From Rhodobium orientis (GTDB taxonomy: Bacteria; Pseudomonadota; Alphaproteobacteria; Rhizobiales; Rhodobiaceae), in the NCBI RefSeq assembly GCF_003258835.1, contig NZ_NPEV01000001.1:186001-250000 (forward strand): a DNA stretch of 64,000 nucleotides, given 5' to 3'. The position numbers were made by a program, and so were the translations under genes. Below the pieces are notes generated by a model that saw only the letters and a program-made list of their open reading frames with translations, was not told where the DNA came from and made no database searches. This document shows, in pieces, positions 4,528-33,096 of the stretch. How positions within the stretch are numbered: the stretch's first letter is position 1; each line of letters starts with the position of its first letter.

Positions 4528-4571
4528 ATGCCTTGCTTGCCGCGTCCCTGGGCGAAGAAAAGGAAGCGGGC

Positions 4572-6608
4572 GTGCTCGTTGGTATCGACATCGGCGGAAC
4601 ATTCACGGACGTTGTGGCGCTCGACCCCCGCAATGGTCGTGTCTTTCTTCACAAGCTCCCCTCGACCAACGACAATCCCGCCCTTGCGGCCTTGCTGGGC
4701 CTGCACGAAATCCTGGCCCAGAGCGGCACCTCACCCGAACGGCTGGAAGGCGTTTCCCACGGCACCACCGTGGCGACCAATGCGGTGCTGCAGAGCCGCT
4801 ACGCCCGGACCGCCCTGGTCACCACGAAGGGCTTTCGCGACGTTCTCGACATCGGCCGCCAGCGGCGGCCGGATCTGTGGGACATCGACAGGGACAAGCC
4901 CGATCCCATCGCCGCACGCGGCGACCGTTTCGAGGTCGACGAGCGGCTGGACCGCAACGGCGATGTCCTGAAGGCGCCGCCGGCGGCCGAAATCGAGGCG
5001 CTCATTCCGTGGATCCAGACGGCCGGCGTCGAGGCGGTGGCGGTCTGTTTCCTGCATGCCTACGCAAGCAACCGGCACGAGGAGCGGATCGCGGACGAGG
5101 TGCGGCGCCGGCTGCCGGGCGTCTATGTCTGCACGTCGGCCGAAGTGGTGAACGAGTTCCGCGAGTACGAGCGGTTCTGCTCCACGGTGGTCAATGCCAG
5201 CCTGCTGCCGGTCATGGACCGCTATCTGGCCGAGCTCGAAGGGGGCGTGCACGACATTTCCGGCAAGGCCTTCCTCCGGGTCATGCAGTCGAGCGGCGGC
5301 ACCATGTCGGCGACGGCGGCGCGGGAAAAGCCGATCAACACCTTCCTGTCGGGGCCGTCCGCCGGCGTCATCGGCGCGGTCGCCGTTGCCGCGGCCGCAA
5401 AGCAGGACGATTTCATCACCCTCGATGTCGGCGGAACCAGCGCCGACGTCTGCCTGGTCGAGGACGGGCAGTCGCAGTTGCGCCTCGACCAGCGTATCGC
5501 CGGACTGCCGGTGAAGACCCCGACCGTCGACGTGCATACGGTCGGAACCGGCGGTGGCAGCATCGCCTGGATCGATGCATCCGGCCTGTTGAAGGTCGGC
5601 CCGCAGAGCGCCGGCGCGACGCCCGGGCCGGCCTGCTACGGCCGCGGCGGCACGATGCCGACCGTCTCGGACGCCAACGAGGTGCTCGGCCGGCTCAATC
5701 CGGATACCCTGCTCGGTGGCCGGCTGAAGGTCGACTGGGACGCCGCCGATGGCGTCATTTCCGACCTTGCCGGGAAGTTGGGCCTCAGCAGGACGGAAGC
5801 GGCATTCGGCGTCATCCGGATCGCCAATGCCCAGATCGTCCAGGCCATTCGCGTCATCTCGGTCGAACGGGGCCACGACCCGCGCGACTTCGCGCTGCTG
5901 GCGGCCGGCGGCGGCGGGCCGGCCCAGGCCGCCGAAGTCGCCCGCGAACTCGGCATCAAGACGGTGCTCGTTCCGGCCAATCCCGGCCTGCTGTGCGCCT
6001 ACGGCCTTTTGCATTCGCGGCAGCGGGCGGACTTCAGCAGGACGCGGCTGATCCCGGTCGCCGACGGGGCTTCCGGCGCGATCTCCGACCTGCGCGACGA
6101 TGTGCTGGCCGAGGTCGAGGAGTGGCGGCAACGCGAGGGCAAGGCACCCGACGACTTCGAACTCGCCTGCCTGGGGGATTTCCGCTATGGCGGCCAGGAT
6201 TCCGAGCTGCAGGTCGACATCGGCCTCGGCGCCATCGACGAAGTGGTCGCGGCGGCCCTGAGGAAAGCCTTCCACGACGCCCATGAGGCGAATTACGGCT
6301 ATGCCGCGCGGGCGCAGCGGGTCGAACTGGTCGCCATCCGGATCGTCGCGACCGGCCGGCAGCCCCGCTATCCGGCGGAAGATCTCTCTGCTGCCGGCGA
6401 CGGGCGCCCGTCCGCCACAAGGTCGGTGTGGTTCGAGCACGACGGCCGGGTCGACACACCGATCTACCAGCGCAGCAGCCTGATCCCGGGAACGGCGATG
6501 CAAGGCCCGGCGATCGTCGAGCAGATGGACACCAGCACGCTCGTGCTGCCCGGCATGTCGTTCACGCTGCTGCCCAGCGGTGTGCTGGTTCTGGAGGAGG
6601 CCGAATGA
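4572..6608 (+). CDS. hyuA: Hydantoinase/5-oxoprolinase family protein, A subunit
   Basis: A 678-residue ATP-dependent amidohydrolase subunit. The N-terminus has the actin-like ATPase phosphate loop VGIDIGGTFTDVV, followed by the SHGTTVATNAVLQ motif typical of HyuA/oxoprolinase. The core has the conserved SGPSAGVIGA and LDVGGTSADVCLVEDG, and GTGGGSIAWID. Length matches the family. The GTG at 4572 was chosen over a TTG at 4533 because AAAGGAAG lies just upstream and the protein then begins directly at the phosphate loop. Its stop overlaps the next start as ATGA, so A and B subunits should be made together. The true substrate (hydantoin, 5-oxoproline, N-methylhydantoin or another cyclic imide) cannot be read from sequence. 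Confidence 0.9.
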   Translation: MLVGIDIGGTFTDVVALDPRNGRVFLHKLPSTNDNPALAALLGLHEILAQSGTSPERLEGVSHGTTVATNAVLQSRYARTALVTTKGFRDVLDIGRQRRPDLWDIDRDKPDPIAARGDRFEVDERLDRNGDVLKAPPAAEIEALIPWIQTAGVEAVAVCFLHAYASNRHEERIADEVRRRLPGVYVCTSAEVVNEFREYERFCSTVVNASLLPVMDRYLAELEGGVHDISGKAFLRVMQSSGGTMSATAAREKPINTFLSGPSAGVIGAVAVAAAAKQDDFITLDVGGTSADVCLVEDGQSQLRLDQRIAGLPVKTPTVDVHTVGTGGGSIAWIDASGLLKVGPQSAGATPGPACYGRGGTMPTVSDANEVLGRLNPDTLLGGRLKVDWDAADGVISDLAGKLGLSRTEAAFGVIRIANAQIVQAIRVISVERGHDPRDFALLAAGGGGPAQAAEVARELGIKTVLVPANPGLLCAYGLLHSRQRADFSRTRLIPVADGASGAISDLRDDVLAEVEEWRQREGKAPDDFELACLGDFRYGGQDSELQVDIGLGAIDEVVAAALRKAFHDAHEANYGYAARAQRVELVAIRIVATGRQPRYPAEDLSAAGDGRPSATRSVWFEHDGRVDTPIYQRSSLIPGTAMQGPAIVEQMDTSTLVLPGMSFTLLPSGVLVLEEAE

Positions 6609-8269
6609 GCGCGGCAGAGACCACGGCGGCGACACCGCCGGCAACCATCGACCCCATCATGACGGAGGTCATCTACAACCAGGTCCTCGGCGCCGCCGAG
6701 GAGATGGGGACCGCGCTGGCGCGCACCGCCTATTCGCCCAACATCAAGCAGCGTTTCGATTTCTCCACCGCCGTCCTCGGGCTCGACGGCGAAGTGCTCG
6801 CCCAGGCGCCGCGCATTCCGATCCACCTCGGCTCGATGATCGGATCGGTCCGCGAACTCGTCAGGACCCGGCCGCTGGAGACGCTTCGGGCCGGCGACAT
6901 GTTCCTGGCCAACGACCCCTACAATGGCGGCGGCCAGCATCTCCCCGACATCAACGTCATGGCGCCGGTGTTCTTTGAGGACACGCCCGTCGCCTTCGTT
7001 GCGAACATCGCGCACCACGCCGACGTTGGCGGCATGCTGGCCGGCAGCGAGGCGATCGCCTGCAAGACCATCTTCCAGGAAGGCATCCGGTTTCCGACCG
7101 TCCAACTGATGCGGCAGGGCGAACTCGTCGAGGACATTCTGTCGATCGTCGCGCTGAATTCGCGCACGCCCGACGAACGCCGCGGCGATCTCCTTGCCCA
7201 GATCGCGGCCAATCAGGTCGGGTCGCGGCGCGTCACGGAGTGCGTTGCCAAGTTCGGCGCGGCGGCGACGCTGGGCGCCCTGACCAGTTACATGAACGCC
7301 ACCGAGACGCGGTTTCGTGCGGTCCTCGCCGGCATTCCCGACGGTACCGCGACGGTGGAGGATTTCCTCGACCCGGATGTCTACGCGCCGGACCGGCCGG
7401 TGCCGATCCGCCTGACGCTGGAAAAGCGCGGCACCGACATCTTTCTCGATTTCTCCGGGTCCGCTGCGCAGTTGCAGAGCGCGCGCAACGTGCCCCTCGG
7501 GGCGCTCCATTCCACCATCTACTCGGTTCTCAAGATGCTGCTCGATCCCGGCCTTGCGGCCAATTCGGGCTATTTCCGCGCCATTCACATTACGTCGCCC
7601 GAAGGCAGCGTCCTCAACCCCAATGTCGGGGCGGCCGTCGGTGCGCGGGCCCTGCCATGTGCCGTCATCGGCGACGTCGTCGCCCGGACCATCTCGGAGC
7701 TCGTGCCGGAGCGCGCGCTCGCCGGCTGCGGCCCGCACCACCAGATCATCTTTTCCGGCGACCGGGATCAGCCGGGCCAGTTCTGGGTCAATTACGAGAC
7801 CTATGCCGGTGCGCTCGGCGCGCGGCCCTACAAGGACGGCGTCGACGCGATCCGCGTCCATGCGTCGGGCTCCTCCAACCTGCCCGTTGAGGCGTTGGAG
7901 CAGTCCTATCCGCTGTTGATCGAAGAATATGCGCTCAACCCGGCATCGGCCGGCGAGGGCCAGTATCGCGGCGGCGCGGGGATCGTTCGCAGTTATCGCG
8001 CGCTCGCCGACATGCGCGTCACCCTGGCGGCGGAGCGGCAGACCGTGCCCGCCAGGGGGCTTGCCGGCGGCGCGGACGGACAACCCGGAACCTTCATCCT
8101 CAATCCGGGAACGACAGGCGAGGAAATCCTCTACAGCGCCCTTGGAGAGCGGGAAATTCGAGCCGGCGAAGTGATCAGCGTGCACACTCCGGGCGCTGGC
8201 GGATACGGCCCGAAAACCGCGCGCGTCAGCGCCACGAAGGCCGGCGGGCGGCCCGGACGAGACACCTGA
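6605..8269 (+). CDS. hyuB: Hydantoinase/5-oxoprolinase family protein, B subunit
   Basis: A 554-residue partner of HyuA. Family hallmarks are the start PIMTEVIYNQVLGAAEEMG, the block LANDPYNGGGQHLPDI, IAHHADVGGM, and glycine-rich C-terminal GEGQYRGGAGIVR and GAGGYGP. It has no signal peptide and should act in the cytoplasm as a complex with the A subunit. The ATG overlaps the hyuA stop and is preceded by GGAGG. The gene is followed after 76 bases by tctC on the same strand, linking hydrolysis of a cyclic amide to uptake by the Tct importer. Confidence 0.9.
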   Translation: MSAAETTAATPPATIDPIMTEVIYNQVLGAAEEMGTALARTAYSPNIKQRFDFSTAVLGLDGEVLAQAPRIPIHLGSMIGSVRELVRTRPLETLRAGDMFLANDPYNGGGQHLPDINVMAPVFFEDTPVAFVANIAHHADVGGMLAGSEAIACKTIFQEGIRFPTVQLMRQGELVEDILSIVALNSRTPDERRGDLLAQIAANQVGSRRVTECVAKFGAAATLGALTSYMNATETRFRAVLAGIPDGTATVEDFLDPDVYAPDRPVPIRLTLEKRGTDIFLDFSGSAAQLQSARNVPLGALHSTIYSVLKMLLDPGLAANSGYFRAIHITSPEGSVLNPNVGAAVGARALPCAVIGDVVARTISELVPERALAGCGPHHQIIFSGDRDQPGQFWVNYETYAGALGARPYKDGVDAIRVHASGSSNLPVEALEQSYPLLIEEYALNPASAGEGQYRGGAGIVRSYRALADMRVTLAAERQTVPARGLAGGADGQPGTFILNPGTTGEEILYSALGEREIRAGEVISVHTPGAGGYGPKTARVSATKAGGRPGRDT

Positions 8270-8345
8270 CGACCCTTTGCGGCCGTCGCGGGAACACCGG
8301 AGAAAAACAACCACCTGAAGCAAAGACTTCACAGAGGAGAAGACC

Positions 8346-9365
8346 ATGAGTTTCGTTGATCGCATAGCCCATGGCACCAGGTGCCTGGTGTCGGCCGCGC
8401 TGTTGGCCATGCCGCTTGCTGCAGCCCCGGTGTTCGCGACGTCGTCCGCCCAGGCCGCCGACGACTTTCCCTCCCGGCCGGTCAACCTGGTCGTCAGCTA
8501 CGGCGCCGGCGGCGGCACCGACCGCCAGGCCCGCATGATGGCCGGGTTCCTGGAAAAGAAGCTCGGCTCGTCCGTCGTCGTCCAGAACATGCCGGGTGCC
8601 GGCGGCCAGGTCGCGATCACCGCGATGCTGCGCGATGAGGCCGACGGTTACACCATCGTCGCCACCAACGAACCGGACATCTCCATGACCGTGGCGCTGC
8701 GCAACGCGCCCTACGCCCGCGAGGACGTGGAGGTGCTGGCGGTGGACATCGTCGATCCGCGTCTCCTCCTGGTGCTCAAGGATGCTCCCTACGAGAGCTT
8801 CGACGACTTCATCAAGGCAGCCAAGGAAAACCCGGGCGAATTGTCGGTCGCGGTCAATTCCGGCGCCGTCCAGGAGCAGTTCGCCAAGTGGCTGTTCAAG
8901 GCGCTCGACGTCGACATCAACTTCGTCGGCTACAAGTCCGGCGGGGAGACCACGGCGGCCCTGCTCGGCGGCCACGTCACCTCGCTGGTCGGCGACGATT
9001 TCGCCCGTTTCGACGTGCGCGACCAGACCAAGGCGCTGATGATTGGCTCCGCCACGGCCAGCCCGCGCTGGCCCGAGGCCGAGGTCATGGTCGATGCGCT
9101 CAAGCCCTATGGCGTGACGCCGCCGACGCCGGATTTCCTCGCCCGGCACATGGTCTATATGGTTCCCTCAGCGCTGCATGAGAACTATCCCGAGCGGTTC
9201 CAGAAGCTGCAGGATGCCATCACCTCGCTGGCGACCGATCCGGAGTACCAGAAGCTGATCAAGGACCAGGGCGCCGGCGACCTGACCAAGATGGCGCCGG
9301 GCAGCGAGTACCGCGACGCGTTCCAGAAATCGCTGGAGGCCTTGAAGGCGACGACCGCAAACTGA
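8346..9365 (+). CDS. tctC: Tripartite tricarboxylate transporter substrate-binding protein (TctC/Bug family)
   Basis: A 339-residue periplasmic receptor for a TTT-family secondary importer. A long signal peptide (hydrophobic LVSAALLAMPLAAAPVF, cleavage near SAQAADD) is followed by the Bug-family motif FPSRPVNLVVSYGAGGGTD and the PGAGGQVA loop that contacts a carboxylate of the ligand. AGAGGAGAA lies just before the ATG. Bug proteins bind diverse carboxylates, so the neighbouring hydantoinase genes are the best clue to the ligand. A strong hairpin follows the stop. Confidence 0.9.
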   Translation: MSFVDRIAHGTRCLVSAALLAMPLAAAPVFATSSAQAADDFPSRPVNLVVSYGAGGGTDRQARMMAGFLEKKLGSSVVVQNMPGAGGQVAITAMLRDEADGYTIVATNEPDISMTVALRNAPYAREDVEVLAVDIVDPRLLLVLKDAPYESFDDFIKAAKENPGELSVAVNSGAVQEQFAKWLFKALDVDINFVGYKSGGETTAALLGGHVTSLVGDDFARFDVRDQTKALMIGSATASPRWPEAEVMVDALKPYGVTPPTPDFLARHMVYMVPSALHENYPERFQKLQDAITSLATDPEYQKLIKDQGAGDLTKMAPGSEYRDAFQKSLEALKATTAN

Positions 9366-9382
9366 TCCGACGATCCGGCCTG

Positions 9383-9410
9383 CCGCCGGCCCGCGCCTTG
9401 GGGCCGGCGG
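9383..9410 (+). terminator. Intercistronic hairpin after tctC
   Basis: A perfect 10-bp stem, CCGCCGGCCC paired with GGGCCGGCGG around an 8-base loop, lies between tctC and tctB. No T-run follows, so it more likely stabilises upstream mRNA or attenuates than stops transcription fully. Confidence 0.5.
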
Positions 9411-9432
9411 TCTGCACCGCAGGGAGCTCGCC

Positions 9433-9936
9433 ATGCCAAAGACGTCTCGGGGCATCGAACGGCTTGCCGGGGAACTTGTCGTGCCGGCGATCGGCCTGGC
9501 ATTCCTTGCGGCCTATTGGTGGCAGGCCGCGTCGCTGTCGTTCCAGGCAAAGGTGTTTCCCGGCCTGGTGTCGGTCAGCATGCTCGTGCTGATCGTCATT
9601 CGCTGCGTGGCGATCGGCCGGGAGTTTTTCGCGCAAAGGCAGGCCGCGCCGGTGCTTGCGGCCGGCGAGGCGACAGCGACGCCGGACGGTGCCTGGCGCG
9701 GCGCGGTGCGCCGGGCCGCGCTTCTGGTGCTGGCAACGCTGATGATGGTGCTGTGGCGCGACCTCGGCGCCATGATCTGCATTTTCCTGTTTCTTCTCGG
9801 GGCCCTGCTGGTGCTTGGCGAGCGCCGGATCGTCCTCCTCGTGCTGTTGCCGGGCATCATGACCGTGACGCTGGTCTATCTGTTCAAGACCGTGCTGGCG
9901 GCGGTGTTTCCCGCAGGCATCTTTTCCCTGTTCTGA
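9433..9936 (+). CDS. tctB: TctB family small membrane subunit
   Basis: A 167-residue integral membrane protein with four predicted hydrophobic segments (starting near LVVPAIGLAFLAAYWW, VSVSMLVLIVIRC, AALLVLATLMMVLW and IVLLVLLPGIMTVTLVYLF). Size, topology and position between tctC and tctA identify it as the small subunit of the tripartite tricarboxylate transporter. Its sequence is poorly conserved in the family, as usual. It should sit in the inner membrane with TctA. Confidence 0.82.
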   Translation: MPKTSRGIERLAGELVVPAIGLAFLAAYWWQAASLSFQAKVFPGLVSVSMLVLIVIRCVAIGREFFAQRQAAPVLAAGEATATPDGAWRGAVRRAALLVLATLMMVLWRDLGAMICIFLFLLGALLVLGERRIVLLVLLPGIMTVTLVYLFKTVLAAVFPAGIFSLF

Positions 9937-9977
9937 ACCTCTGGACCCCCGTTCGCACAGAAGGTGACGCCAACCCC

Positions 9978-11486
9978 ATGGACGCTCTTCAGCAGATCGC
10001 TACCGGCGCTCTCTCGATTCTGTCGTTCGAGACGATCTTCTGGATCATCCTCGGCAGTTTCCTCGGCATGATCGTCGGCGCCATCCCGGGCCTGTCGTCG
10101 GGCATGGCCGTGGCGCTGCTGCTGCCGCTGACCTATACGCTGACGCCGCTCAACGCGCTCATCTTCCTGACCTGCGTCTATGTCGCCGTCACCTATGGCG
10201 GCTCGCTCTCGGCGATCCTGCTGAACACGCCCGGCGCCCCGGAAAACGCGGCGACCGCCTTCGACGGCTATCCGATGGCCCGCGAGGGCAAGGCCGGCGA
10301 GGCGCTGGGCCTGGCCATTGCGGCCTCCGCGCTCGGCGGTTCGATCTCCTACCTGTTCCTGATGGGCGGCATCGGCTACGTCGCCGACATCGCCCTCAGC
10401 TTCGGCCCGGCCGAACTCTTCCTGCTCGCCCTGCTCGGTGTCCTGATTCTCAGTGCGGTCGGCACCGCCGATCCGGTCAAGGCGCTCATCTCGGGGGCCA
10501 TCGGCCTGCTCATCGGAACCATCGGGCTGGTGCCGACCGGCGAATCCCGGGCGATCTTCGGCAGCCTCTATCTCGTCGAAGGCGTCCAGATCGTCCCGGT
10601 TCTGATCGGCATGCTGGTGATTACGGAACTCTTGCTGATGATCGACCAGGACTACATCGTCGATCAGGACAAGATGGCCGGGAACCGGGGAGTGGCGGGC
10701 ATCTTCCGGGGATTCCGGCGCGCGCTGGACTATCCCGTCAATCTGTGCCGGTCGACCGTCATCGGCATCGTCATCGGCCTGATCCCGGCGACCGGCGCGA
10801 CCCTTGCGGCCCTTGCCTCCTACACCATCGCGCGCCGGACATCGAAAAATCCGGAAAGCTTCGGCAAGGGCAACCCGCAGGGCATCGTGGCCGCGGAATC
10901 CGCCAACAATGCCTGCTCGGGCGGCGCGTTGATGACGACGCTCACCCTCGGTGTGCCGGGTAGCGTCGCGACGGCGGTGCTGCTCGGGGCGCTCACGATC
11001 CACGGCCTGCGGCCCGGACCGGCGCTGGTGCAGCAGCAGGGTCCGCTCGTCTACGGCCTGATCTCGGCGGCGATCCTTTCGCAAGTCTTCATGGTGACGA
11101 TTGCCGGCGGTCTGGGGCACGCCTTTTCCGGCTCGCTGGCGATCCACACGCGGATCCTCGTCCCGCTGTTGATGATCTTTTCCCTTCTGGGCAGCTATGC
11201 CGGGCGCAATGTGAGCTTCGATGCCTATCTGATGATCGGCTTCGGCCTTCTCGGCTATCTGATGAAGAAATACGGCTATCTGCCGGTCGCCGTGGTGATG
11301 GGCGTCATGCTGGGCTCGATCGCCGACAACGAACTGGTCCGCGTGCTGCAATTGTTCCGGTCGCACTGGTATCGCGCCTTTTTCGAACGGCCCATCGCCT
11401 TCGTCCTGATGGTCGTGCTGGTCTCCATTCTGGCAAGGGCGCTCTATCAGGGCCTGTTCGGACGGCGCAAAAAGCCGGCCGAGTGA
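9978..11486 (+). CDS. tctA: Tripartite tricarboxylate transporter large permease
   Basis: A 502-residue polytopic inner membrane protein, the translocating subunit. Family marks include the N-terminal GSFLGMIVGAIPGLSSGMA, the repeated PATGAT motif in the second half, and TYGGSLSAILLNTPGAPENAATAFDGYPMA. About 10-12 hydrophobic segments are visible. The ATG at 9978 gives the normal family length; the frame is open further upstream but overlaps tctB. TctCBA is therefore complete and uses the ion gradient to bring in a carboxylate captured by TctC. Confidence 0.92.
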   Translation: MDALQQIATGALSILSFETIFWIILGSFLGMIVGAIPGLSSGMAVALLLPLTYTLTPLNALIFLTCVYVAVTYGGSLSAILLNTPGAPENAATAFDGYPMAREGKAGEALGLAIAASALGGSISYLFLMGGIGYVADIALSFGPAELFLLALLGVLILSAVGTADPVKALISGAIGLLIGTIGLVPTGESRAIFGSLYLVEGVQIVPVLIGMLVITELLLMIDQDYIVDQDKMAGNRGVAGIFRGFRRALDYPVNLCRSTVIGIVIGLIPATGATLAALASYTIARRTSKNPESFGKGNPQGIVAAESANNACSGGALMTTLTLGVPGSVATAVLLGALTIHGLRPGPALVQQQGPLVYGLISAAILSQVFMVTIAGGLGHAFSGSLAIHTRILVPLLMIFSLLGSYAGRNVSFDAYLMIGFGLLGYLMKKYGYLPVAVVMGVMLGSIADNELVRVLQLFRSHWYRAFFERPIAFVLMVVLVSILARALYQGLFGRRKKPAE

Positions 11487-11629: not shown

Positions 11630-12574
11630 ATGGACATCCGCACCTATGCCGGCTTCGTCACCGCGGCCGAGCTCCTCAACATCACCTCGGCCGCGCAGCG
11701 GCTCAACATCACGCAGTCGGCCCTGTCGCGGCAGATCCGCAGCCTGGAGGATTCCCTCGGCCTGCGCCTCTTTGAGCGGACGAAGCGCAACATCCGCCTG
11801 ACGGCGGCCGGCGAGGCGCTGTTGTCGCGCATCAACGGGGTGCTCGCCGCCGACCGGGACTTGCGCGCCTTCGCCGGCGACCTTGCCCGCGACCAGAGCG
11901 GGCTCTTGAAGATCGGCGCCTGCTCGCAGCTCATCGAGCGCTACCTGCCGGCGTTCCTCGGCGACTGGCGCGCGGCCAATGCCGGCATCGACGTGCGGCT
12001 GGAGGACGGCGGCGGGCCGGAACTGGTGGAAAAGCTGCAGGCGGGCGCGGTGCACCTGATCATCAGCTCGATGCCGTCGGCGCCGATCGACCCGTTCGAC
12101 ATGGTGCGGCTGGGAGACCTCGCCTTCGTCGCGGTGGCGACGCCTGACCTGTTGCCCGACGCCGGTGCGCCGATCGAGATCTGCGATCTCCTGGAAAGCC
12201 CGATCCTGACGCTCAACCGCCGCCATGCCTCGCGCGAGGTGTTCGATGCCGCCTGCCGGCTGTCGCGGGCGGTGCCGCGCATCGTGCTGGAAGCGACCTC
12301 GCCGCACACGCTGTTTGCGCTCGCGGAAGGTGGCAACGGGATCGCCGTCGTGCCATCCTCGGCGCGGCTGGCCGGGCGGTCGCTCGTCAGCCGGCCGATC
12401 ACGTTGCGCGGCGAGTTGGTGCGCTTCGATATCTGCGCCATGTGGGACAGCCGGGTGCCGCTGCCGGCCTATGGGCGGCGCTTCGTGGAGGCGCTGCGCG
12501 CCCATATCATGGCCGAAGAGGGGACGGGCGAGACGCCGGCCGGGACGGCCCACGGGCACCTGCGCATCGTCTGA
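11630..12574 (+). CDS. LysR-family transcriptional regulator
   Basis: A 314-residue regulator. The HTH reads TAAELLNITSAAQRLNITQSALSRQIRSLEDSLG, followed by GLRLFERTKRNIRLTAAG, then an effector domain. The ATG at 11630 was chosen because it lies directly before the HTH and is preceded by AAAGG; the frame is open upstream but lacks LysR-like residues there. It lies co-directionally after tctA, 143 bases away, and could control the Tct operon or the sugar ABC operon that starts 124 bases downstream. Unlike most LysR genes here it is not divergent from a target. Confidence 0.86.
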   Translation: MDIRTYAGFVTAAELLNITSAAQRLNITQSALSRQIRSLEDSLGLRLFERTKRNIRLTAAGEALLSRINGVLAADRDLRAFAGDLARDQSGLLKIGACSQLIERYLPAFLGDWRAANAGIDVRLEDGGGPELVEKLQAGAVHLIISSMPSAPIDPFDMVRLGDLAFVAVATPDLLPDAGAPIEICDLLESPILTLNRRHASREVFDAACRLSRAVPRIVLEATSPHTLFALAEGGNGIAVVPSSARLAGRSLVSRPITLRGELVRFDICAMWDSRVPLPAYGRRFVEALRAHIMAEEGTGETPAGTAHGHLRIV

Positions 12575-14778: not shown

Positions 14779-14808
14779 GGGGCGGTCGGACTTTCCGACC
14801 GTCCCTTT
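14779..14808 (+). terminator. Intercistronic hairpin with pyrimidine tail after the binding-protein gene
   Basis: CGGTCGGA (14783-14790) pairs perfectly with TCCGACCG (14794-14801) over a three-base loop, extended by one G-U and three G-C pairs to a 12-bp stem, then CCCTTTCCTCT. It looks like a partial terminator or mRNA stabiliser between binding protein and permease. Confidence 0.6.
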
Positions 14809-14833: not shown

Positions 14834-16957
14834 ATGAAACTTCGCGAGCGGCTGCAAGCCTGGCGCTACAATCTCGTCCCCGACCATCTGATCGGCGAGA
14901 TCCTGACCAAGCGCTGGACCGACAACGCCATCCCCTTCCTGGCCCTGATCATTACGGTGGCGACGTTCGGGAGCATCATTCCGGGCTTCTTCCAGCTCTA
15001 TTCGCTGCAGGAATCGACGCGCCAGCTCGGCGAGTTCAGCCTCGTCGTGATCGGCCTCACCGTCGTCATGCTCGGTGGCGGCATCGACCTTGCCGTCGGC
15101 TCTATCTTCGCCCTGTCCGCGTTTTCGGCGGTGGCCACTTTCTTCATCCTGGAACAGCCCGTCTGGGTCGCGCTGCTGGCGTCGCTGGCGACCGGGCTCG
15201 CCTTCGGCGCCGTCAACGGCTACCTGATCGGCTTCCTGCGCCTTCGCGCCTTCATCACCACGCTCGTCACCTTCATCATCGGCCGGGCGCTCTACGACAT
15301 CCTCATCGTCGCCCATGGCTCCAAGATCCAGATGTCGTTCGTTTCCTCCGACACCTGGGACTTCATCGGCGACGGCACGTTCCTCGGCATCTCGGTGCCG
15401 ATCTGGTCGGCCATCGTGCTCGCCGTCGTCACCCATGTGGCGCTGACCCGCTCGCGCCCCGGCTGGCACGTGCTTGCCGTCGGCGGCTCGCGGCGCTCGG
15501 CCCACAATGCCGGCATCCAGGTCCGGCTGACGGTGTTCTTCACCTACGTCTTTTCGGGCCTTTGCTCGGCGCTCGCCGGGTTCCTGATCGCCACGCGGCT
15601 CTCCGGCGCCGGACCGGGCACCGGCGGCGGGCTTGAAATCCTCGCCCTGACGGCGGCGGTCGTTGGCGGCAACAGCCTCGGCGGCGGACGCGGCTCGGTG
15701 GTCAAGGGCCTGATGGGCGCGATCATCGTGCTCGTCCTGACCAACGGGCTGATCCGCCTCGGCTACGGCACCGGCACCAACCAGATGGTGCTCGGCATCC
15801 TGCTCGCCGTCGCCGTGACCATCGACATCCGCTGGCTGAAGAACCGCCACAAGGTGCTGAACGAGGTCTATGTGGCGCCGGTCTATCTGCGCATGGGCGA
15901 GCCGCAATCGGCGGTGCCGGGGTCCGGAACGCCCTATGCGCTGAACAACAAGCTGTCGGAGGCCGAGCATATCGGGCTCGGCGAGCTGGAAGGACCCGAG
16001 GACGTCATCCTCGACCGCAACGACAACCTTTATTGCGGCACCAGGCACGGCGAGATCATCCGCTTCTTTGCCCCGGACTACACACGCTCGGAGGTCTTTG
16101 CCCATATCGGCGGCTTCCCGCTCGGCCTTGCCTTCGATGCCGACGGCAACCTCATCACCTGCGTCGGCGCGATGGGGCTCTACGCGATCTCGCCGGACGG
16201 AAAGGTGACGCGGCTTTCGGCGGAAACGGCGCGGTCCTGGACCTCGGTCAACGACGATGCGCGGCTGCGCGATCCGAACGACCTCGACATCGCGCAGGAC
16301 GGCAAGATCTATTTCACGGATTCCACCAAGCGCTACGACGCCCATGACTGGGCGCTCGATTCCATCGAGAACCGGGGCACCGGCCGGCTGCTGGTCTACG
16401 ACCCGGCGGACGGTTCGACCAAGACGCTGCTCGACGGCTACCGCTACACCAATGGCGTCTGCATGGCGCACGACAACAAGTCGCTGTTCTTTTCCGAAAG
16501 CTGGCGCTGCCGCATCCACCGCTACTGGCTGGAAGGCCCGAAGGCGGGGACGGCGGAATGCGTCATCAAGGACATGCCGGGCTATACCGACAACATCAAC
16601 CGCGCCTCGGACGGCACCTATTGGATGGCCTGGCTCGGCATGCGCACGCCGTCCTTCGACCTGTCGCTGCGCCATCCGTCGATGCGCAAGCGCATGACGC
16701 GGCGGCTGCCGCAGGACGAGTGGCTGTTCCCCAACATCAATACCGGCGGCGTCGTCAAGTTCGACGAGAATTTCAACATCGTGCGCACCATGGCCGACCT
16801 CTCCGGCGTCTCGCACCCGATGGTCACCTCCATGCGCGAGCACAAGGGCGAACTGTTCATCGGCGGCATCCTCAACAACCGCATCGGCCGGTTCAGGATC
16901 GAGGGTGCCGATCCGACCTGGGACGCCAACACCGCCTATTGGGGGACGCGGACATGA
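14834..16957 (+). CDS. Fusion: CUT2 sugar permease plus SMP-30/strictosidine-synthase-like beta-propeller
   Basis: One uninterrupted frame of 707 residues. Residues about 1-340 are a ribose-type permease (GGGIDLAVGSIFALSAF; GGNSLGGGRGSVVKGLMGA; roughly 8-10 membrane segments). Residues about 375-705 are a soluble six-bladed-propeller-type domain of the SMP-30/gluconolactonase/strictosidine-synthase group (EGPEDVILDRNDNLYCGTR, RDPNDLDIAQDGKIYFTDS, YRYTNGVCMAHDN, LFFSESWRCRIHRYWLEG, PGYTDNINRASDGTYWMAW). With the usual permease topology both termini are cytoplasmic, which would place the propeller inside the cell at the exit of the channel. It may hydrolyse a lactone or related ester as the substrate enters. 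The stop overlaps the next start (ATGA), and the next gene encodes another propeller. Confidence 0.88.
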   Translation: MKLRERLQAWRYNLVPDHLIGEILTKRWTDNAIPFLALIITVATFGSIIPGFFQLYSLQESTRQLGEFSLVVIGLTVVMLGGGIDLAVGSIFALSAFSAVATFFILEQPVWVALLASLATGLAFGAVNGYLIGFLRLRAFITTLVTFIIGRALYDILIVAHGSKIQMSFVSSDTWDFIGDGTFLGISVPIWSAIVLAVVTHVALTRSRPGWHVLAVGGSRRSAHNAGIQVRLTVFFTYVFSGLCSALAGFLIATRLSGAGPGTGGGLEILALTAAVVGGNSLGGGRGSVVKGLMGAIIVLVLTNGLIRLGYGTGTNQMVLGILLAVAVTIDIRWLKNRHKVLNEVYVAPVYLRMGEPQSAVPGSGTPYALNNKLSEAEHIGLGELEGPEDVILDRNDNLYCGTRHGEIIRFFAPDYTRSEVFAHIGGFPLGLAFDADGNLITCVGAMGLYAISPDGKVTRLSAETARSWTSVNDDARLRDPNDLDIAQDGKIYFTDSTKRYDAHDWALDSIENRGTGRLLVYDPADGSTKTLLDGYRYTNGVCMAHDNKSLFFSESWRCRIHRYWLEGPKAGTAECVIKDMPGYTDNINRASDGTYWMAWLGMRTPSFDLSLRHPSMRKRMTRRLPQDEWLFPNINTGGVVKFDENFNIVRTMADLSGVSHPMVTSMREHKGELFIGGILNNRIGRFRIEGADPTWDANTAYWGTRT

Positions 16958-17991
16958 TCTTCGATCCGATCCTCGACCTCTTCCGCGGCAAGGCGATCAC
17001 CATCCCGCCGCTCGACGGTGCGTTCTGCGCCAATGCCGGCCTCGACGAGGCGCCCGTCCTTGCCGAATTGCCCGTCGCCGACAATCTGTGCCAGGCCGCC
17101 GGTACCGTCTATGCCTCGAGCGGCCCGGGCCTCTACCGGCTGGGCGAGGGCGGGGAGCGGGAGCGGGTGGAGGGTTTCGCCGTCCCGATCACCGCGCTGG
17201 CCGCCGATGCAGACGGTACGCTCGCCGTCGCGCTCGATGACGGCACGCTGATCGAAGGCGGGACGCCGTTGCCTTTGCCGAAAGGGATTTCCTGCATCAC
17301 GGCGCTCGCCTATGGCGAAGACGGCTCGCTGTGGCTGGCCAACGGCTCCGAGCAGCACCCGCCCTCGGCCTGGGTCGCCGACCTGATGGAAAAGAACGCC
17401 TCCGGCTCGGTCTGGCGGCGCAAGGCCGGCGGTGCCTTCGAGCGCATGGCGCGCGGCCTCGCCTGGCCCTACGGCGTCCTGCCGCGCAGCGGAGACATGG
17501 CGATCGTCTCGGAAAGCTGGCGCCATCGCCTGGTGCGCGTCGATGCCGGCGGGTCGGACCCGGTCGTGAAGCACCTGCCGGGCTATCCGGCGCGACTGTC
17601 GCCCGCCGCGGACGGCGGCGTCCTGTTGTCGATCTTCGCGCCGCGCAACCGGCTTATCGAACTGGTGCTGCAGGAAAAGCACTATCGCTACGACATGATG
17701 ATCGAGGTGCCGCGCGAATACTGGATCGCGCCGACCCTCTCCTCGGGCCGCAGTTTTCTGGAGCCGCTGCAATGCGGCGGCATCCGCACCATGGGTGTCC
17801 ACAAGGCCTGGGCGCCGAGCCGGTCCTACGGCATGGTCGTGCGGCTCGACGAGCATCTGGCGCCTGTCGCGAGCCTGCACAGCCGCGCCAACGGGCGCCG
17901 TCACGGCACGACCAGCGCCATCGAGGCGGACGGCCGACTGCTCGTCGCCTCCAAGGGCGGCAACTGCATCCTCGCACCGGAGGGCTTGTGA
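16954..17991 (+). CDS. SMP-30/strictosidine-synthase-like beta-propeller protein
   Basis: A 345-residue soluble protein without a signal peptide. It resembles the propeller half of the preceding fusion: FAVPITALAADADGTLAVALDDG, ITALAYGEDGSLWLANGS, GLAWPYGVLPRSGDMAIVSESWRHRLVRV, LPGYPARLSPAADGG. The repeated SESWR..RVRV-type blade is shared with the fusion protein, so the two probably arose from one ancestor. The ATG overlaps the fusion stop, and its own stop overlaps the ATPase start (TGATG), so all three should be translated together. A lactonase or esterase role on the imported compound is inferred; metal ligands were not assigned. Confidence 0.8.
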   Translation: MIFDPILDLFRGKAITIPPLDGAFCANAGLDEAPVLAELPVADNLCQAAGTVYASSGPGLYRLGEGGERERVEGFAVPITALAADADGTLAVALDDGTLIEGGTPLPLPKGISCITALAYGEDGSLWLANGSEQHPPSAWVADLMEKNASGSVWRRKAGGAFERMARGLAWPYGVLPRSGDMAIVSESWRHRLVRVDAGGSDPVVKHLPGYPARLSPAADGGVLLSIFAPRNRLIELVLQEKHYRYDMMIEVPREYWIAPTLSSGRSFLEPLQCGGIRTMGVHKAWAPSRSYGMVVRLDEHLAPVASLHSRANGRRHGTTSAIEADGRLLVASKGGNCILAPEGL

Positions 17992-19524: not shown

Positions 19525-20373
19525 GTGGCTAAGACAATCTGGACTTACTGGCGCGGCGACTGGCACGAGGGCGATTTGCGCATCCTCGGCGCGACCTCGC
19601 ACGGAACCTGGCTCGGCAGCCTCGTCTTCGACGGCGCCCGCCTGTTCGACGGCGTTTCTCCTGACCTCGACCGCCATTCGCAGCGCGTCAACGCCAGCGC
19701 CGAGGCCCTCGGCCTTGCGCCGACGCTGACAGGCGAGGAGATCGAGGCGCTGACCTTCGAGGGCCTGAAGAAGTTCGCGCCGGGCACCGACGTCTACATC
19801 CGGCCGATGTACTGGGCCGAGGAGAACGATGTCGGCATCCTGCCGCCGAAACCCGACACCACCGATTTCGCGCTCTGCCTGGAAGAGATGCCGATGGTCG
19901 AGCCGACCGGCTTCACCATCACCACCACCCGGTTCCGCCGGCCGACCATGGAAGTGATGCCGGTCAACGCCAAGGCCGCCTGCCTTTACGCCAACAATGC
20001 GCGCATGGTCCGCGACGCGCAGGCCAAGGGCTACCAGAACGCCCTTTGCTGCGATGCCAACGGCAATGTGGCGGAGCTGGCGACCTCCAACGTCTTCATG
20101 GTGCGCGGCGGCGAGGTGTTCACGCCGATGCCGAACGGCACCTTCCTCAACGGCATCACCCGCCAGCGCGTCCTCGGCCTTTTGCGCGAGGCCGGCGTTG
20201 CCGTGCACGAGGTGACACTGAGCGTCGACGACTTCCGCGAGGCGGAGGAGATCTTTTCGACCGGCAACATTTCCAAGGTCGTGCCGGTGATCGGCTTCGA
20301 CGACGCCCAATTGCAGTTCGGACCGATCGCGCGCAAGGCGCGCCAGCTTTATTGGGACTGGGCGAAAGCCTGA
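19525..20373 (+). CDS. Class IV aminotransferase (branched-chain/D-amino acid aminotransferase-like)
   Basis: A 282-residue PLP fold type IV enzyme. SHGTWLGSLVFDGARLFDG and RHSQRVNASAEALGL match the N-terminal domain; the PLP Lys is probably in MPVNAKAACLYANN; DANGNVAELATSNVFMV and NGITRQRVLGLLREAG carry the phosphate-binding region. GTG 19525 is preceded by a perfect AAAGGAGG. Substrate (branched-chain amino acid, D-alanine, 4-amino-4-deoxychorismate or another amine) cannot be decided. It follows the ATPase gene after 37 bases and may belong to the same transcript, implying an amine or keto compound in the pathway. Confidence 0.84.
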   Translation: MAKTIWTYWRGDWHEGDLRILGATSHGTWLGSLVFDGARLFDGVSPDLDRHSQRVNASAEALGLAPTLTGEEIEALTFEGLKKFAPGTDVYIRPMYWAEENDVGILPPKPDTTDFALCLEEMPMVEPTGFTITTTRFRRPTMEVMPVNAKAACLYANNARMVRDAQAKGYQNALCCDANGNVAELATSNVFMVRGGEVFTPMPNGTFLNGITRQRVLGLLREAGVAVHEVTLSVDDFREAEEIFSTGNISKVVPVIGFDDAQLQFGPIARKARQLYWDWAKA

Positions 20374-20390: not shown

Positions 20391-20801
20391 ATGGCAACCG
20401 TGAAGATCTTGAGCGATGCCGACGCCGAGGCGAACCCCGCCGTCAAGGCTGTGTTCGACGACATTCGGGCGACCCGCAAGACCGATTTCATCAACAATTT
20501 CTGGCGTGGCCTCGCCAACGATCCGGTGACGCTGAAGCGTACCTGGGAAGGCCTGAAGGCGGTCATGACGGGCGACACCGCGCTCTCGCCGGTCATGCAG
20601 GAGATGATCTATATCGCCGTTTCCACCGCCAATGGCTGCAACTACTGCATCCATTCGCACACCGCTTCGGCGCGCGCCAAGGGCATGACCGACGCGGAAT
20701 ATTCCGAGCTGCTGGCGCTGATCGGGCTGGCCGCTCAGACCAACCATCTGGTCACCGCCATGCAGTTGCCGGTCGACCCGGCCTTCCTGGTGGAAGGCTG
20801 A
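20391..20801 (+). CDS. Carboxymuconolactone decarboxylase/AhpD-like protein
   Basis: A 136-residue all-helical protein. The redox pair and proton relay of the AhpD-like family are intact in STANGCNYCIHSHTASARAKG (cut here at its core: CNYCIHSH), around residue 82. Such proteins act as peroxidase partners or decarboxylases. AAGGAGG sits 5-6 bases before the ATG. It lies 17 bases after the aminotransferase gene and 4 bases before the quinone oxidoreductase gene, so the three are one operon. Confidence 0.85.
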   Translation: MATVKILSDADAEANPAVKAVFDDIRATRKTDFINNFWRGLANDPVTLKRTWEGLKAVMTGDTALSPVMQEMIYIAVSTANGCNYCIHSHTASARAKGMTDAEYSELLALIGLAAQTNHLVTAMQLPVDPAFLVEG

Positions 20802-20805
20802 GGCG

Positions 20806-21780
20806 ATGGGCGGCGGATTGGTGGCCCGGGAACCCGGCGGCCCGGAGGCGATGGTCTGGACGGACCTGCCGCTGGAGAAGCCGGGGCCGGGCGAAGTCGT
20901 CGTGGCCCATACGGCCGTCGGCGTCAATTTCATCGACGTCTATTTCCGCAGCGGCCTCTACCCCTGGCCCGAGACGCCGATGATCCCCGGCGCGGAGGCC
21001 TCGGGGGTGGTGGAAGCGGTCGGCCCGGACGTTGCCGACCTCAAGGTCGGTGACCGGGTCGCCTATGTGCTGCCGCGCGGTGCCTATCGCGAGCAGCGGG
21101 TGCTGCCGGCCGAACGGCTGGTGCCGCTGCCGGACGGCATCGATGCCACCGCGATCGCCGGTGCCATGCTGAAGGGACTGACGGCGCACTATCTCGTCAC
21201 CGCGTCCTATGCGGTGAAGCCGGGCGACACGGTCCTCGTCCATGCCGCGGCCGGCGGCGTCGGCCTGATCCTCGGCCAGTGGCTGAAGGCCCTCGGCGTC
21301 ACGGCCATCGGCACCGCCGGCGGGCCGCAGAAGGTCGCGCTCGCCAGGGAGCACGGCTACGACCACGTCATCGACTACAAGTCGGAGGACTTCGTTGCCG
21401 AGGTCGAGCGTCTGACCGATGGCGCGGGCTGCGAGGCGGTCTATGACAGCGTCGGCGCCGACACCTGGCGCGGCTCGCTGAAATGCCTGAAGCGGCGCGG
21501 CATGTTCGTCAATTTCGGGCAGTCGTCGGGGATGCTCCGCGACTTCCAGATGTCGGACCTCGCCAAGGGCGGATCGCTTTCGGCGAACCGGCCGATGCTA
21601 TTCGACTACATCGTCGACCGCAGCGAGCTGCTCGATCGTTCCTCGGCCCTGTTCGATCGCATCCTCGACGGCACCATCCGCCTCGACGTCGCGGCGACGC
21701 GCCGCCTGAAGGAGGCCGCTGCCGCCCACGCGGACCTTGAGGCGCGCAAGACCGTCGGCTCGACCATCCTGGTGGTCTGA
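20806..21780 (+). CDS. qor: Zinc-independent quinone oxidoreductase (MDR superfamily)
   Basis: A 324-residue NADPH-dependent medium-chain reductase. GVNFIDVYFRSGLYPWP and IPGAEASGVVEAVG are the quinone oxidoreductase hallmarks. VLVHAAAGGVGLILGQWLKALG is the Rossmann nucleotide loop. The structural-zinc cysteines of alcohol dehydrogenases are absent, as expected for this branch. It is the last gene of the aminotransferase/AhpD-like/Qor set and would reduce an alpha,beta-unsaturated carbonyl or quinone. Confidence 0.88.
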   Translation: MGGGLVAREPGGPEAMVWTDLPLEKPGPGEVVVAHTAVGVNFIDVYFRSGLYPWPETPMIPGAEASGVVEAVGPDVADLKVGDRVAYVLPRGAYREQRVLPAERLVPLPDGIDATAIAGAMLKGLTAHYLVTASYAVKPGDTVLVHAAAGGVGLILGQWLKALGVTAIGTAGGPQKVALAREHGYDHVIDYKSEDFVAEVERLTDGAGCEAVYDSVGADTWRGSLKCLKRRGMFVNFGQSSGMLRDFQMSDLAKGGSLSANRPMLFDYIVDRSELLDRSSALFDRILDGTIRLDVAATRRLKEAAAAHADLEARKTVGSTILVV

Positions 21781-26981: not shown

Positions 26982-29900
26982 CTATCGTAGCGATGAGGTC
27001 CGGTCGATGTGTAGTCCTGCAAGGTCTGGCGGCAGGCAAGGGGCCACGATCTCGCTCCCGAATTCGCGGCGGCTGCCGAGGGCGTGGCGGATCAGCATGT
27101 TGACGAAGAGCCCCGGTCCGCTGGAATAGATGCGCCAGCCGCCGTCGACCGGGATCGTTCCGTCCCGGACCCGCTGCCATTCCTCACGGGCCTGATAGCG
27201 ATCGGCAAAGGCGGCATCGCTGCTGGAGAAATAGGCGTTCCTCTGGCGGAGTGTGGCGTTTGGTACCTCGTCCGTCACCGCGATCGGATTGACGACCGCA
27301 AGGGCGTTCCAGAGGCCGGTACTATCGCCGAGCCCGGCCAGCATCTCCGCATAGCGCAGGTGGGCGTGGACATACATGAGCCCGATCTCGCGGCCGAAAT
27401 AGGACGCAGATTCCGCCCGCCGGAACACCGTCTCGACACCGCCGCGATAGGGAACCGGCCGGTCCATGAGGCGGACGCCGTCGGGGAAGGACAGGCGCTC
27501 GTGCAGCAGGCGCAGGTGTTCACTGACCTCGTCCGGCGTTAGCAGGCCGGCGACCACCGCCTCGGTGATGGAAATGAGGGAGAGGGAGACGCCCGTTGTT
27601 TCATCCGTTGGGTGGAGCAGCAGTTCCGGCGCCGCGCCGCCGGCATCGAAGACCGCGTAGCCGGCGACGATGCCGTCGCGCAGGAGAAATTTGCGGAAGT
27701 CGTCGCGCATCGCCGCGGCCATGGTCTTGCAGTGCTTTGCGGCCTCGGCCTTTCCTGCCTGATGCATGAGTTCTGCATAGCGGCTGAGTTGGCGGGTGAG
27801 CAGGGCGACGGTCCAACTGCTGACCATCCAGTCGCGCTTTGCCGGGTCGACGGGTTGCAGCGAGTCGTTCCAGTCGCCGTTGCCGTATCGGATGAGGTGC
27901 GTGCCGGCAAGGAAACGGCTCTCGACGGTGGCGATCAATCGCGCGGCGTGGTCTTCGACCGTGCTGTGCGCATCGCTCGCCGCGCCGCCGCCCTCGCGGC
28001 GCCAGCCAATGCGTTCGTTAAGGAACGCCAGGTCGCCGGTCTCTTCCAGATAGTCTGAGAGCGCCTTCAGCGGCCAGACGATGACGTCGCCGTGGGCGCC
28101 GGCGTCGCGGATGAAGGAATAGGGCTCCAGCATGAACCATTGCGGCCAGTCGCCCCTGACCTCGTCCTGCTGGGAAAAAACGGTCTTCAGGATCTCTTTA
28201 GCCGGCGCGTCCTGGCGGAGCGTCAGGAGCAGTTCCAGCGGGCCCTGGCAGACGTCGCGTGTCCCCCAGGCGGCGCCGGTATATTGCTCAAGCCCGTGCG
28301 GCGCGGCGACGTGGATGCGGGCGTTGTGGACGAGCCAGGGAAGGGCGGTGTTCATCGCCTCGACGGTGGCGTCGCGGCTGCCGTCGTCGAGGGCGAGATG
28401 CGGTGAGACCGCATCCCAGAAGGCGGTCGTCTCGGCCAGTATCGCTGCATCGTCGACGCCGCTTGCATAGCGCTCGGCGAGCGCCGCGGCCGTGTCTTGC
28501 GACGTCATCGCGCCGACAATGGCGAGGCTGAAGGCGTTGGTGGCACGGGTCTGGACGACGACGGCTTCGCCGGTCCGGCTTCCTTCGCCGTCAAAGAGAA
28601 GTTCGTCGCAGCCGATGGCCTCGACTTCTTCCGGCGTGCTGCTGACGAGGTGGACAACGGCCTCGGGGTAGCGCTCGTCCCAGATCCGGCCCACGGCCGG
28701 CCGGAAGGCGGCGCGCTTTTTCGATCCATCGATCGCGATGCGTCCGCCGCCGTCGAGCTCGCGCTCGCCGAGGACGAGGTGGCCGACGACGAGGAAACGG
28801 CAGGGAGCGCCATCCGAAACCACGCGCAATTGCGCGGCGGCATCGCCGGCGACGGTCATGGAGACGGCGATCGTCCGGTCTCCCAGCCGGTAGATCCAGC
28901 GGCAGTCCTGAAGGCCCATCTCGAACGCTGAGGGCACGGCGAGGTGGCGCCAGCCGTCGCCGGTGTCGACGAGGATCCTGAGGCCATTGGAGCGGATAAT
29001 GTTGTAGGGGTCGCGCGAGACGGAAAAGAGCTTGTGCAGCGAGGTGTTGCCGATGGTGAGCTGGGCGCCGAAGACGCCGTGCATCCAGGCGGTCAGCGAC
29101 AGGGCGTCGTCCTCCGGCATCCAGCTCGTCCCGCTGAGGAGGATGGTGCCGTGCCGGCGGGCCACGAGCCGTTCCTTGTCGCCAAGGACGACATGCCGGT
29201 TCTGATGCCCTTCGGGGACGAAGAACGACAGCATCGTTCCGCCGTCCCGTTCCTCAAGGAAGCGATCCGGATAGCGCTCGGCGATCTCCGCATCGCTCAA
29301 GGGGTCGACCGCAAGGGGCGGGGCTTCCTCGATGACGCTGCGGCGGATTTCCTGGAGGCGGACGTCCTGCGGCTCGAACGCTGCGCTGGCGCGCCGGGCT
29401 TCCTCCACCACGCTGAGGTCGGCGTCGCCGGAGGCTGCCGGATGGTCGGGGCGATAGACGCCGAAGAAGGTCCGGGATGCGGTGGCGCCGGGGGCGATCT
29501 CAAGGGGGGCGGACTGCAGCATCGCGCCGGCGCATTCGCCTTGCAGGCGCACCGACGGCAGGTCCGTTCCGAAAGGGAGGTCGAAGCCGGCGCGGTCGCG
29601 GTGGTCCGGGCCGAGGACCTGCCGGAAGTCGGTGGCAAAGCCGGCGGTGCCGTCGAGGCAGCCATGGGCGAGCCACGGGTGGGCGTCCCATTGGGCTAGG
29701 TTCTGCCGGGTCATGATCACCGGGCCGATGTCCGGGGCTTCCGCGATGTGATGGTCGAGATACTGGCAGGCGAAGGCCTCGTTGTTGGTGAGGAAGCCGC
29801 GGTCGGCGAGGCCCAAATCCTGCATCAGCACGGCATCGCAGCGGATCGGGTTCTTGCCCCCGTTGGTGACGTCGATCCGCCAGAGCCACACCAGGCTTTC

Positions 29901-30236
29901 AGGATGCAGCCAGAGGGTCGTGCGGCACAGGACGCCGTTTTCCTCGCATTGCCAGACGATGCGGTCGCCCTCGCTGCCGACGAGGCCGCGTGCGCCCGAT
30001 CCGGCGATGGGGATGACGGCACCGTCGCCGAGCCTCAGAACGATGCGGCCGAGACCGCCGCCGAGGGGTGAGCCCAGCACCTGGTTGACCATGGTGCGGT
30101 GGTCGCCCGCATCGTGCTCGATGGCAAAGAGCGCGCCGTTCGGGAGCACGGCGGCGCCGAGCCCGGACGGGCTCGTGGCATGCCGCAGCGCAAGGTCCGC
30201 GTCCGAGGGAGTGGTCCGTCTTTCTGTGCCCGTCAT
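26982..30236 (-). CDS. GH94-like glycoside phosphorylase family protein (cellobiose-phosphorylase type)
   Basis: A 1084-residue cytoplasmic protein without a signal peptide. The second half shows the alpha/alpha-barrel of GH94/NdvB-C-terminal enzymes: GTRDVCQGPLELLLTLRQDAP, the general-acid motif YGNGDWNDSLQ (Asp near residue 785), YAEMLAGLGD and YFSSSDAAFADRYQA. The first half has beta-sandwich-like repeats and substrate-shaping segments. Such enzymes split a beta-glucoside with phosphate to give alpha-glucose-1-phosphate. ATG 30236 is preceded by AAGGA. It is the last gene of the DeoR-led operon, 101 bases after the ATPase gene, so it probably acts on the imported glycoside. Specificity cannot be read; hydrolysis rather than phosphorolysis is possible. 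Confidence 0.75.
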   Translation of the reverse strand: MTGTERRTTPSDADLALRHATSPSGLGAAVLPNGALFAIEHDAGDHRTMVNQVLGSPLGGGLGRIVLRLGDGAVIPIAGSGARGLVGSEGDRIVWQCEENGVLCRTTLWLHPESLVWLWRIDVTNGGKNPIRCDAVLMQDLGLADRGFLTNNEAFACQYLDHHIAEAPDIGPVIMTRQNLAQWDAHPWLAHGCLDGTAGFATDFRQVLGPDHRDRAGFDLPFGTDLPSVRLQGECAGAMLQSAPLEIAPGATASRTFFGVYRPDHPAASGDADLSVVEEARRASAAFEPQDVRLQEIRRSVIEEAPPLAVDPLSDAEIAERYPDRFLEERDGGTMLSFFVPEGHQNRHVVLGDKERLVARRHGTILLSGTSWMPEDDALSLTAWMHGVFGAQLTIGNTSLHKLFSVSRDPYNIIRSNGLRILVDTGDGWRHLAVPSAFEMGLQDCRWIYRLGDRTIAVSMTVAGDAAAQLRVVSDGAPCRFLVVGHLVLGERELDGGGRIAIDGSKKRAAFRPAVGRIWDERYPEAVVHLVSSTPEEVEAIGCDELLFDGEGSRTGEAVVVQTRATNAFSLAIVGAMTSQDTAAALAERYASGVDDAAILAETTAFWDAVSPHLALDDGSRDATVEAMNTALPWLVHNARIHVAAPHGLEQYTGAAWGTRDVCQGPLELLLTLRQDAPAKEILKTVFSQQDEVRGDWPQWFMLEPYSFIRDAGAHGDVIVWPLKALSDYLEETGDLAFLNERIGWRREGGGAASDAHSTVEDHAARLIATVESRFLAGTHLIRYGNGDWNDSLQPVDPAKRDWMVSSWTVALLTRQLSRYAELMHQAGKAEAAKHCKTMAAAMRDDFRKFLLRDGIVAGYAVFDAGGAAPELLLHPTDETTGVSLSLISITEAVVAGLLTPDEVSEHLRLLHERLSFPDGVRLMDRPVPYRGGVETVFRRAESASYFGREIGLMYVHAHLRYAEMLAGLGDSTGLWNALAVVNPIAVTDEVPNATLRQRNAYFSSSDAAFADRYQAREEWQRVRDGTIPVDGGWRIYSSGPGLFVNMLIRHALGSRREFGSEIVAPCLPPDLAGLHIDRTSSLR

Positions 30237-30337
30237 TGCCGCCTGTCCTTGGTTGGATCCGGTGAACCTAGGGCGCATTGTTGTCAGATTGAAGGAGCCC
30301 TGCTGCGCGAGGTTACCCAAAGCGAAAGGCCGGAGCC

Positions 30338-32077: not shown

Positions 32078-32100
32078 CTGGTTTCTCCTTCTGGAATTTA

Positions 32101-33048: not shown

Positions 33049-33096
33049 GGCCTCTTGCTCATGAAGGCGACGGGGGAGGGTATCATCGGGTGGATA

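Follow-up and report, generated by a model that had tools for sequence, protein, structure and literature searches.

A gene in the 64,000-nucleotide stretch of Rhodobium orientis DNA analyzed here (the window) encodes a membrane permease of the CUT2 type joined in one frame to a beta propeller of the SSL type, and it sits in an importer cassette that also encodes a second, unfused propeller. Both halves of the fusion come from known families; what sets the system apart is that they are permanently joined and accompanied by an inactive twin propeller. In the part of the open literature that we searched, we found no description of this combination. The analysis establishes the fusion, the five-gene cassette, the predicted folds of both propellers, the retention of ligand positions in one propeller versus their loss in the other, and a predicted cytoplasmic side for the fused domain. 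We give about an even chance to the reading that this is an ABC importer with a tethered cytosolic SSL/N6P-superfamily hydrolase that would process the imported solute, its catalysis being putative.

The initial annotation described one uninterrupted 707-residue frame carrying a complete CUT2 permease and then a propeller, and this was borne out by the open reading frame (14834–16957, forward strand, without a stop), by Pfam and by AlphaFold2. Residues 64–327 match PF02653 (BPD_transp_2) at 109.9 bits against a cut-off of 26.8. Further along, residues 367–411 match SSL_N and residues 482–568 match Str_synth (76.3 bits), both above cut-off, and residues 407–602 match SGL/SMP-30 at 56.7 bits against a cut-off of 26.3. 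All four domains were present in each of the 39 homologues scanned. AlphaFold2, run with 39 homologues as input, predicted ten long membrane helices followed by a beta propeller from about residue 373 (mean pLDDT 81); the placement of channel and propeller relative to each other is uncertain in this model (pTM 0.57). In 90 of 93 homologues the distance from L335 to E389, which spans the linker, comes to 55 residues. Linker codons compared with those of one other locus (L012) gave a dN of 0.05 and a dS of 0.73, which indicates purifying selection for that pair.

Each of the 71 loci with sufficient flanking sequence has the gene order permease A, binding protein, fusion, second propeller, ATPase (Table 1). 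The fused permease shares with the CUT2 importers RbsC, AraH and AlsC its ten helices, a partner permease, a Peripla_BP_4 protein and a double-domain ATPase, and its assignment to CUT2 rests on the BPD_transp_2 domain together with the partner permease, binding protein and double-NBD ATPase encoded in one operon. Those importers end soon after the last helix, whereas the fused permease continues into the propeller, and the second propeller gene is part of the cassette only here. Permease A is presumed to be the heterodimer partner of the fused permease. A phmmer search with the permease part returned no solved relative at E 0.001. A GC-rich stem-loop folds within the 79-nt region between the binding protein and fusion genes, with TTTCCT directly after it, and is possibly an attenuator that raises the binding protein over the permease. 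In other loci the stability of the 75 nt before the fusion exceeds that of coding controls by only a small margin, which does not demonstrate conservation.

Table 1. Features of the cassette, the fusion protein and the adjoining genes, in window coordinates. Neighbor-gene counts over 59 loci are not independent, because the named loci are rich in Mesorhizobium.
Feature	Coordinates	Strand	Evidence and occurrence
LysR-type regulator, possible regulator	11633..12574	+	PF00126/PF03466; cluster in 15/36 representative loci
CUT2 permease A, unfused, 328 aa	12698..13684	+	PF02653, 88.1 bits; upstream of fusion in 75/75 loci with room
Periplasmic solute-binding protein, RbsB/D-allose-binding type, 339 aa	13735..14754	+	PF13407, 146.1 bits; 75/75 loci
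GC-rich stem-loop between binding protein and fusion genes	14779..14805	+	12-pair stem, 9 G-C, loop of 3
Permease::SSL-propeller fusion, 707 aa	14834..16957	+	ORF, Pfam, AlphaFold2, locus comparison
Membrane part, residues 1–345, 10 predicted transmembrane helices	14834..15868	+	PF02653, AlphaFold2, charge bias
TM6–TM7 loop, residues 207–229, presumed ATPase-coupling, cytoplasmic	15452..15520	+	Mean 3.83 K/R and 0.02 D/E, 93 homologues
Linker, residues 346–372	15869..15949	+	Near-constant length, codon selection
Six-bladed SSL propeller, residues 373–707	15950..16954	+	VIA-align, Str_synth/SSL_N/SGL
E389-D390, first N6P ligand position (= TGW6 E59) and following acid	15998..16003	+	93/93
N482-D483, second ligand position (= TGW6 N167)	16277..16282	+	N 84, D 9 of 93; D483 93/93
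N540, third ligand position (= TGW6 N226)	16451..16453	+	93/93
D586-N587, fourth ligand position (= TGW6 D271/N272)	16589..16594	+	93/93
Second propeller, unfused, 345 aa, ligand positions lost	16954..17991	+	hhalign, AlphaFold2, 91 homologues; 74/74 loci
Double-domain ABC ATPase, xylG/rbsA type, 498 aa	17991..19487	+	Profile matches; 74/74 loci
Class IV aminotransferase (PRK13356)	19525..20373	+	483 bits, cut-off 262; near cassette in 11/59 loci
Carboxymuconolactone-decarboxylase (CMD)/AhpD-like, most frequent neighbor	20391..20801	+	PF02627; within ~9 kb of fusion in 57/59 loci
Zinc-type quinone oxidoreductase	20806..21780	+	PF00107/PF08240; 14/59 loci

The fused propeller is closest to SSL proteins, above all to rice TGW6, rather than to SMP-30 proper. 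The SMP-30 type given in the initial annotation should therefore be replaced by SSL, since Str_synth outscores SGL and TGW6 is the best structural match. That match (8kg3, an IAA-glucose hydrolase and the closest solved structure) has a VIA-align Z of 33.5, at 2.5 Å over 278 residues. Strictosidine synthases are tied with it at the top (Z ~31–33, less than 1 below TGW6), and DFPase, Drp35 and RPA3624 reach about 28–31 (DFPase ~30.6, Drp35 ~28–29). With TGW6 and other SSL proteins the fused domain shares six blades, the Str_synth and SSL_N domains and the same residues at four ligand positions; it differs from them in being joined to a permease and in its predicted cytosolic location, and TGW6 has S and G where the fusion has the extra acids D390 and D483. 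The SGL group of SMP-30, gluconolactonase, DFPase and Drp35 has the same fold and a match above the curated cut-off, but the sequence match is weaker than that to SSL. Membrane-anchored bacterial SSL proteins from Pseudomonas and others are 35–38% identical to the fused propeller, but are unfused, have an N-terminal anchor and presumably lie on the opposite side of the membrane. Strictosidine synthase proper shares the fold and the Str_synth domain, but the catalytic Glu of its HFE motif, Glu309 of the Rauvolfia enzyme, aligns with T665 of the fusion. This threonine is invariant in all 93 fusions, and a true strictosidine synthase is ruled out.

In this superfamily the majority of SSL proteins retain four ligands and probably act as hydrolases, true strictosidine synthases being the exception (PMC4215206). 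In TGW6, residues E59, N167, N226 and N272 correspond to the calcium ligands of DFPase, of gluconolactonase XC5397 and of Drp35 (PMC10958001). In a profile alignment to 8kg3, these four align with E389, N482, N540 and N587 of the fusion, and a single offset of 28 in the index recovers each of the four TGW6 residue numbers. The fused propeller thus carries the four SSL ligand positions as E389, N482, N540 and D586/N587. Among the 93 fusions, E389, D390, D483, N540, D586 and N587 do not vary; position 482 is N in 84 and D in the other 9. The added acids D390 and D483 may resemble the paired ligands of paraoxonase PON1. A search for conserved metal ligands was among the checks that the initial annotation had proposed; it had held that a propeller lacking all of them and placed on the periplasmic side would overturn its reading. 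The four putative positions are kept in 93/93 fusions, bar the N482D change in 9, and the predicted side is cytoplasmic.

That annotation overlooked the adjoining gene, which encodes a paralogous propeller without these ligands and is common to every testable locus, directly after the fusion in 74 of 74. Its start overlaps the fusion stop (ATGA), and a four-base overlap of ATGA or GTGA occurs in 89 of 94 sequences, a tally that includes a few copies of the window locus. The second propeller matched no Pfam family above cut-off. It is 25% identical to the fused propeller over 191 residues, and a profile comparison (hhalign) gave 99.8%. AlphaFold2 predicted a propeller fold with a pLDDT of 87, and the best structural matches were again strictosidine synthase and TGW6. 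At the N6P ligand positions it has D43, T116, Y173 and A213/R214; over 91 second propellers these are D in 83, T in 80, Y in 61 (a variable position), and A followed by an R present in 91 of 91. The set has invariant residues of its own, such as R214 and E187, and the second propellers form a separate tree group (100/100) with longer branches than the fused ones. Judged by these aligned residues, the ligand site is kept in the fused propeller and lost in its paralogue. The lost positions rule out the second propeller as an independent N6P hydrolase.

The case for catalysis in the fused propeller rests mainly on this contrast with its paralogue. Under the hydrolase reading, the binding protein would deliver a sugar-like ester, glycosyl ester or lactone to the pair of permease A and the fused permease, and the double ATPase would drive import. 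The SSL/N6P hydrolase, welded on the cytosolic side to one of the two channel subunits of this CUT2 (ribose/allose) type importer, would sit about 50 residues below the channel and cleave the incoming compound, which would then be committed to metabolism and could not leave. The second propeller would be an inactive paralogue that shapes the complex, as a partner of either the fused propeller or the unfused permease. We infer catalysis, direct hand-over and trapping, as well as this role of the second propeller. A more specific version is rather doubtful: the channel-borne propeller would carry out transport-coupled catalysis alongside a dead regulatory or specificity twin, and hydrolysis would make import irreversible, by analogy with group translocation but with hydrolysis as the chemical step. 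ABC importers are normally thought to pass their cargo unchanged, and the conserved fusion cassette makes transport-coupled chemistry testable.

Several findings count against a hydrolase. TGW6 is an SSL hydrolase with the same four residues, and no calcium was bound in its crystal (PMC10958001). Neighboring genes vary by lineage, and the unfused relatives are apparently periplasmic, which implies a change of side. The calcium-free TGW6 crystal also favors a second reading, in which the propeller is no enzyme but has a regulatory or structural function in the cytosol, either sensing an intracellular ligand or serving as a docking site for the second propeller and the ATPase. Its role would then be comparable to that of the regulatory domains on MalK-type ATPases. 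We hold this to be a real, though minority, possibility, and a serious one because the cassette keeps one propeller that is unable to be an N6P metal enzyme. Retention of that propeller in 74/74 cassettes suggests that a non-catalytic propeller is useful, and its own invariant residues point the same way. The near-constant linker length is what mechanical coupling would be expected to produce. A purely structural role, however, leaves unexplained why the N6P site was kept in one propeller and lost in the other.

The fusion occurs in alpha-, beta- and gammaproteobacteria, and a family-wide search, which had also been proposed at the outset, found an in-frame fusion at each of the 80 named genome loci retrieved. 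In a plasmid collection, 15 records match the query over 80% or more of its length, the closest being 81% identical, with hosts in Rhizobium, Shinella, Pantoea, Paraburkholderia, Sulfitobacter, Salipiger, Celeribacter and Paracoccus. Most of these records already carry the annotation “SMP-30/gluconolactonase/LRE family protein”; the fusion is widespread, a point that the initial annotation had missed. Such database names are correctable, because family members are called lactonases, yet half of each is a permease. A phage origin was considered and rejected, as no phage record covers the fusion. In a phylum sample of 398 genomes, 17 propellers in 11 genomes scored above 500 bits, all within frames of 707–840 aa, and the next best scored 273 bits or below in frames of mostly ~350–440 aa. 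In a class sample of 385 genomes, 16 propellers in 10 genomes exceeded 440 bits, and of these 15 sit in frames of 710–755 aa and the other in a 559-aa frame; the remainder fell below 240 bits in frames of ~360–420 aa. Together the samples hold 33 propellers above 440 bits, a few genomes being common to both. No unfused close relative of the fused propeller was seen in either sample, and the score gap was clean. The fused propellers form one tree group (support 99/98), which is consistent with a single origin kept under selection. In one class-level relative (G702), five fusion copies lie on contigs C25, C26 and C41, three of them within ~17 kb (C25 37348–54503).

This distribution bears on a further explanation, that the fusion serves only to co-localize a catabolic hydrolase with the importer at a fixed ratio, with no coupling to the transport cycle. 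Transport and the first catabolic step are often encoded together, and several neighbors of the cassette are catabolic enzymes. We nevertheless regard this explanation as improbable, given that no split version was found in the 80 loci, that none was clearly present in the two genome samples, and that linker length is near-constant.

The fused propeller is most likely cytoplasmic, as predicted from the K/R bias, the even number (ten) of helices and the basic TM6–TM7 loop. Over 93 homologues, mean K/R counts in the predicted inner loops were 4.0 at the N-terminus, none in TM2–3, 2.0 in TM4–5, 3.8 in TM6–7, 1.0 in TM8–9 and 4.1 after TM10. In the predicted outer loops they were 0.7, 0.0, 0.05, 0.01 and 0.03, with acids in TM5–6. 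RbsC systems have been classed as having a type II importer fold with 20 helices per complex (PMC11466899), which ten helices and a long basic TM6–TM7 loop fit. The cytoplasmic C-terminus that the initial annotation had supposed therefore stands, as a prediction.

Placement of the propeller in the periplasm, where it would hydrolyze or capture a compound before import, would agree with the nearest unfused SSL proteins, in which a short basic N-terminal stretch and one hydrophobic segment precede the propeller. From this pattern those relatives are probably signal-anchored and periplasmic, and if both assignments hold, the domain changed sides on fusion. We consider a periplasmic fused propeller very improbable, because ten helices and a strong positive-inside bias place both permease ends in the cytoplasm. 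No extra helix was found in the fusion linker either, and by eye the second propeller has no signal peptide and so would be cytosolic. An assembly or sequencing artefact joining two genes, which the initial annotation had named as a way for the frame to fail and for which we found no supporting point, has a negligible chance of being correct, because all 80 independent loci carry the in-frame fusion, the L335–E389 distance is near-constant and purifying selection acts on the linker codons in the pair compared.

No single pathway in the gene neighborhoods points to the cargo, because the neighbors differ between lineages and only the CMD-family gene is nearly constant. Matches of the binding protein to ribose-, allose- and other sugar-binding proteins are weak (51 bits or less) and not specific. 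Neither the permease nor the ATPase comes anywhere near an NCBIfam equivalog cut-off, which precludes assignment to any of the named sugars. Several solutes, related to each other, are probably handled by the cassette. Among 36 representative loci, isochorismatase-like genes are near 9, glutamine-synthetase-like genes near 8 and N-formylglutamate-amidohydrolase-like genes near 8. A block of these three gene types recurs upstream of the cassette, for example in L057, L060, L013 and L001, and suggests that some members of the family import a solute with an amine or amide group. Pantoea has dihydroxyacetone-kinase- and triose-isomerase-like neighbors, Sulfitobacter and Paraburkholderia have CoA enzymes, and Salipiger has an aldehyde dehydrogenase. 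In Shinella sp. HZN7 (L006, 6613–7938), a gene for a degradative HMG-CoA reductase immediately precedes the cassette, which may point to mevalonate or mevalonolactone as the solute at that locus.

Elsewhere in the window, hydantoinase/oxoprolinase-like A and B subunits, a TctC/TctB/TctA-like tripartite transporter and a LysR regulator were recognized by eye, in that order, at 4533–11486. On the reverse strand, a 1119-aa frame (26982–30341) resembles, also by eye, a glycoside phosphorylase of the cellobiose/cellodextrin-phosphorylase type. A second CUT2-like binding protein and permease, again recognized by eye on the reverse strand (31136–36854), lie beside two FGGY-type carbohydrate kinases, without a propeller.
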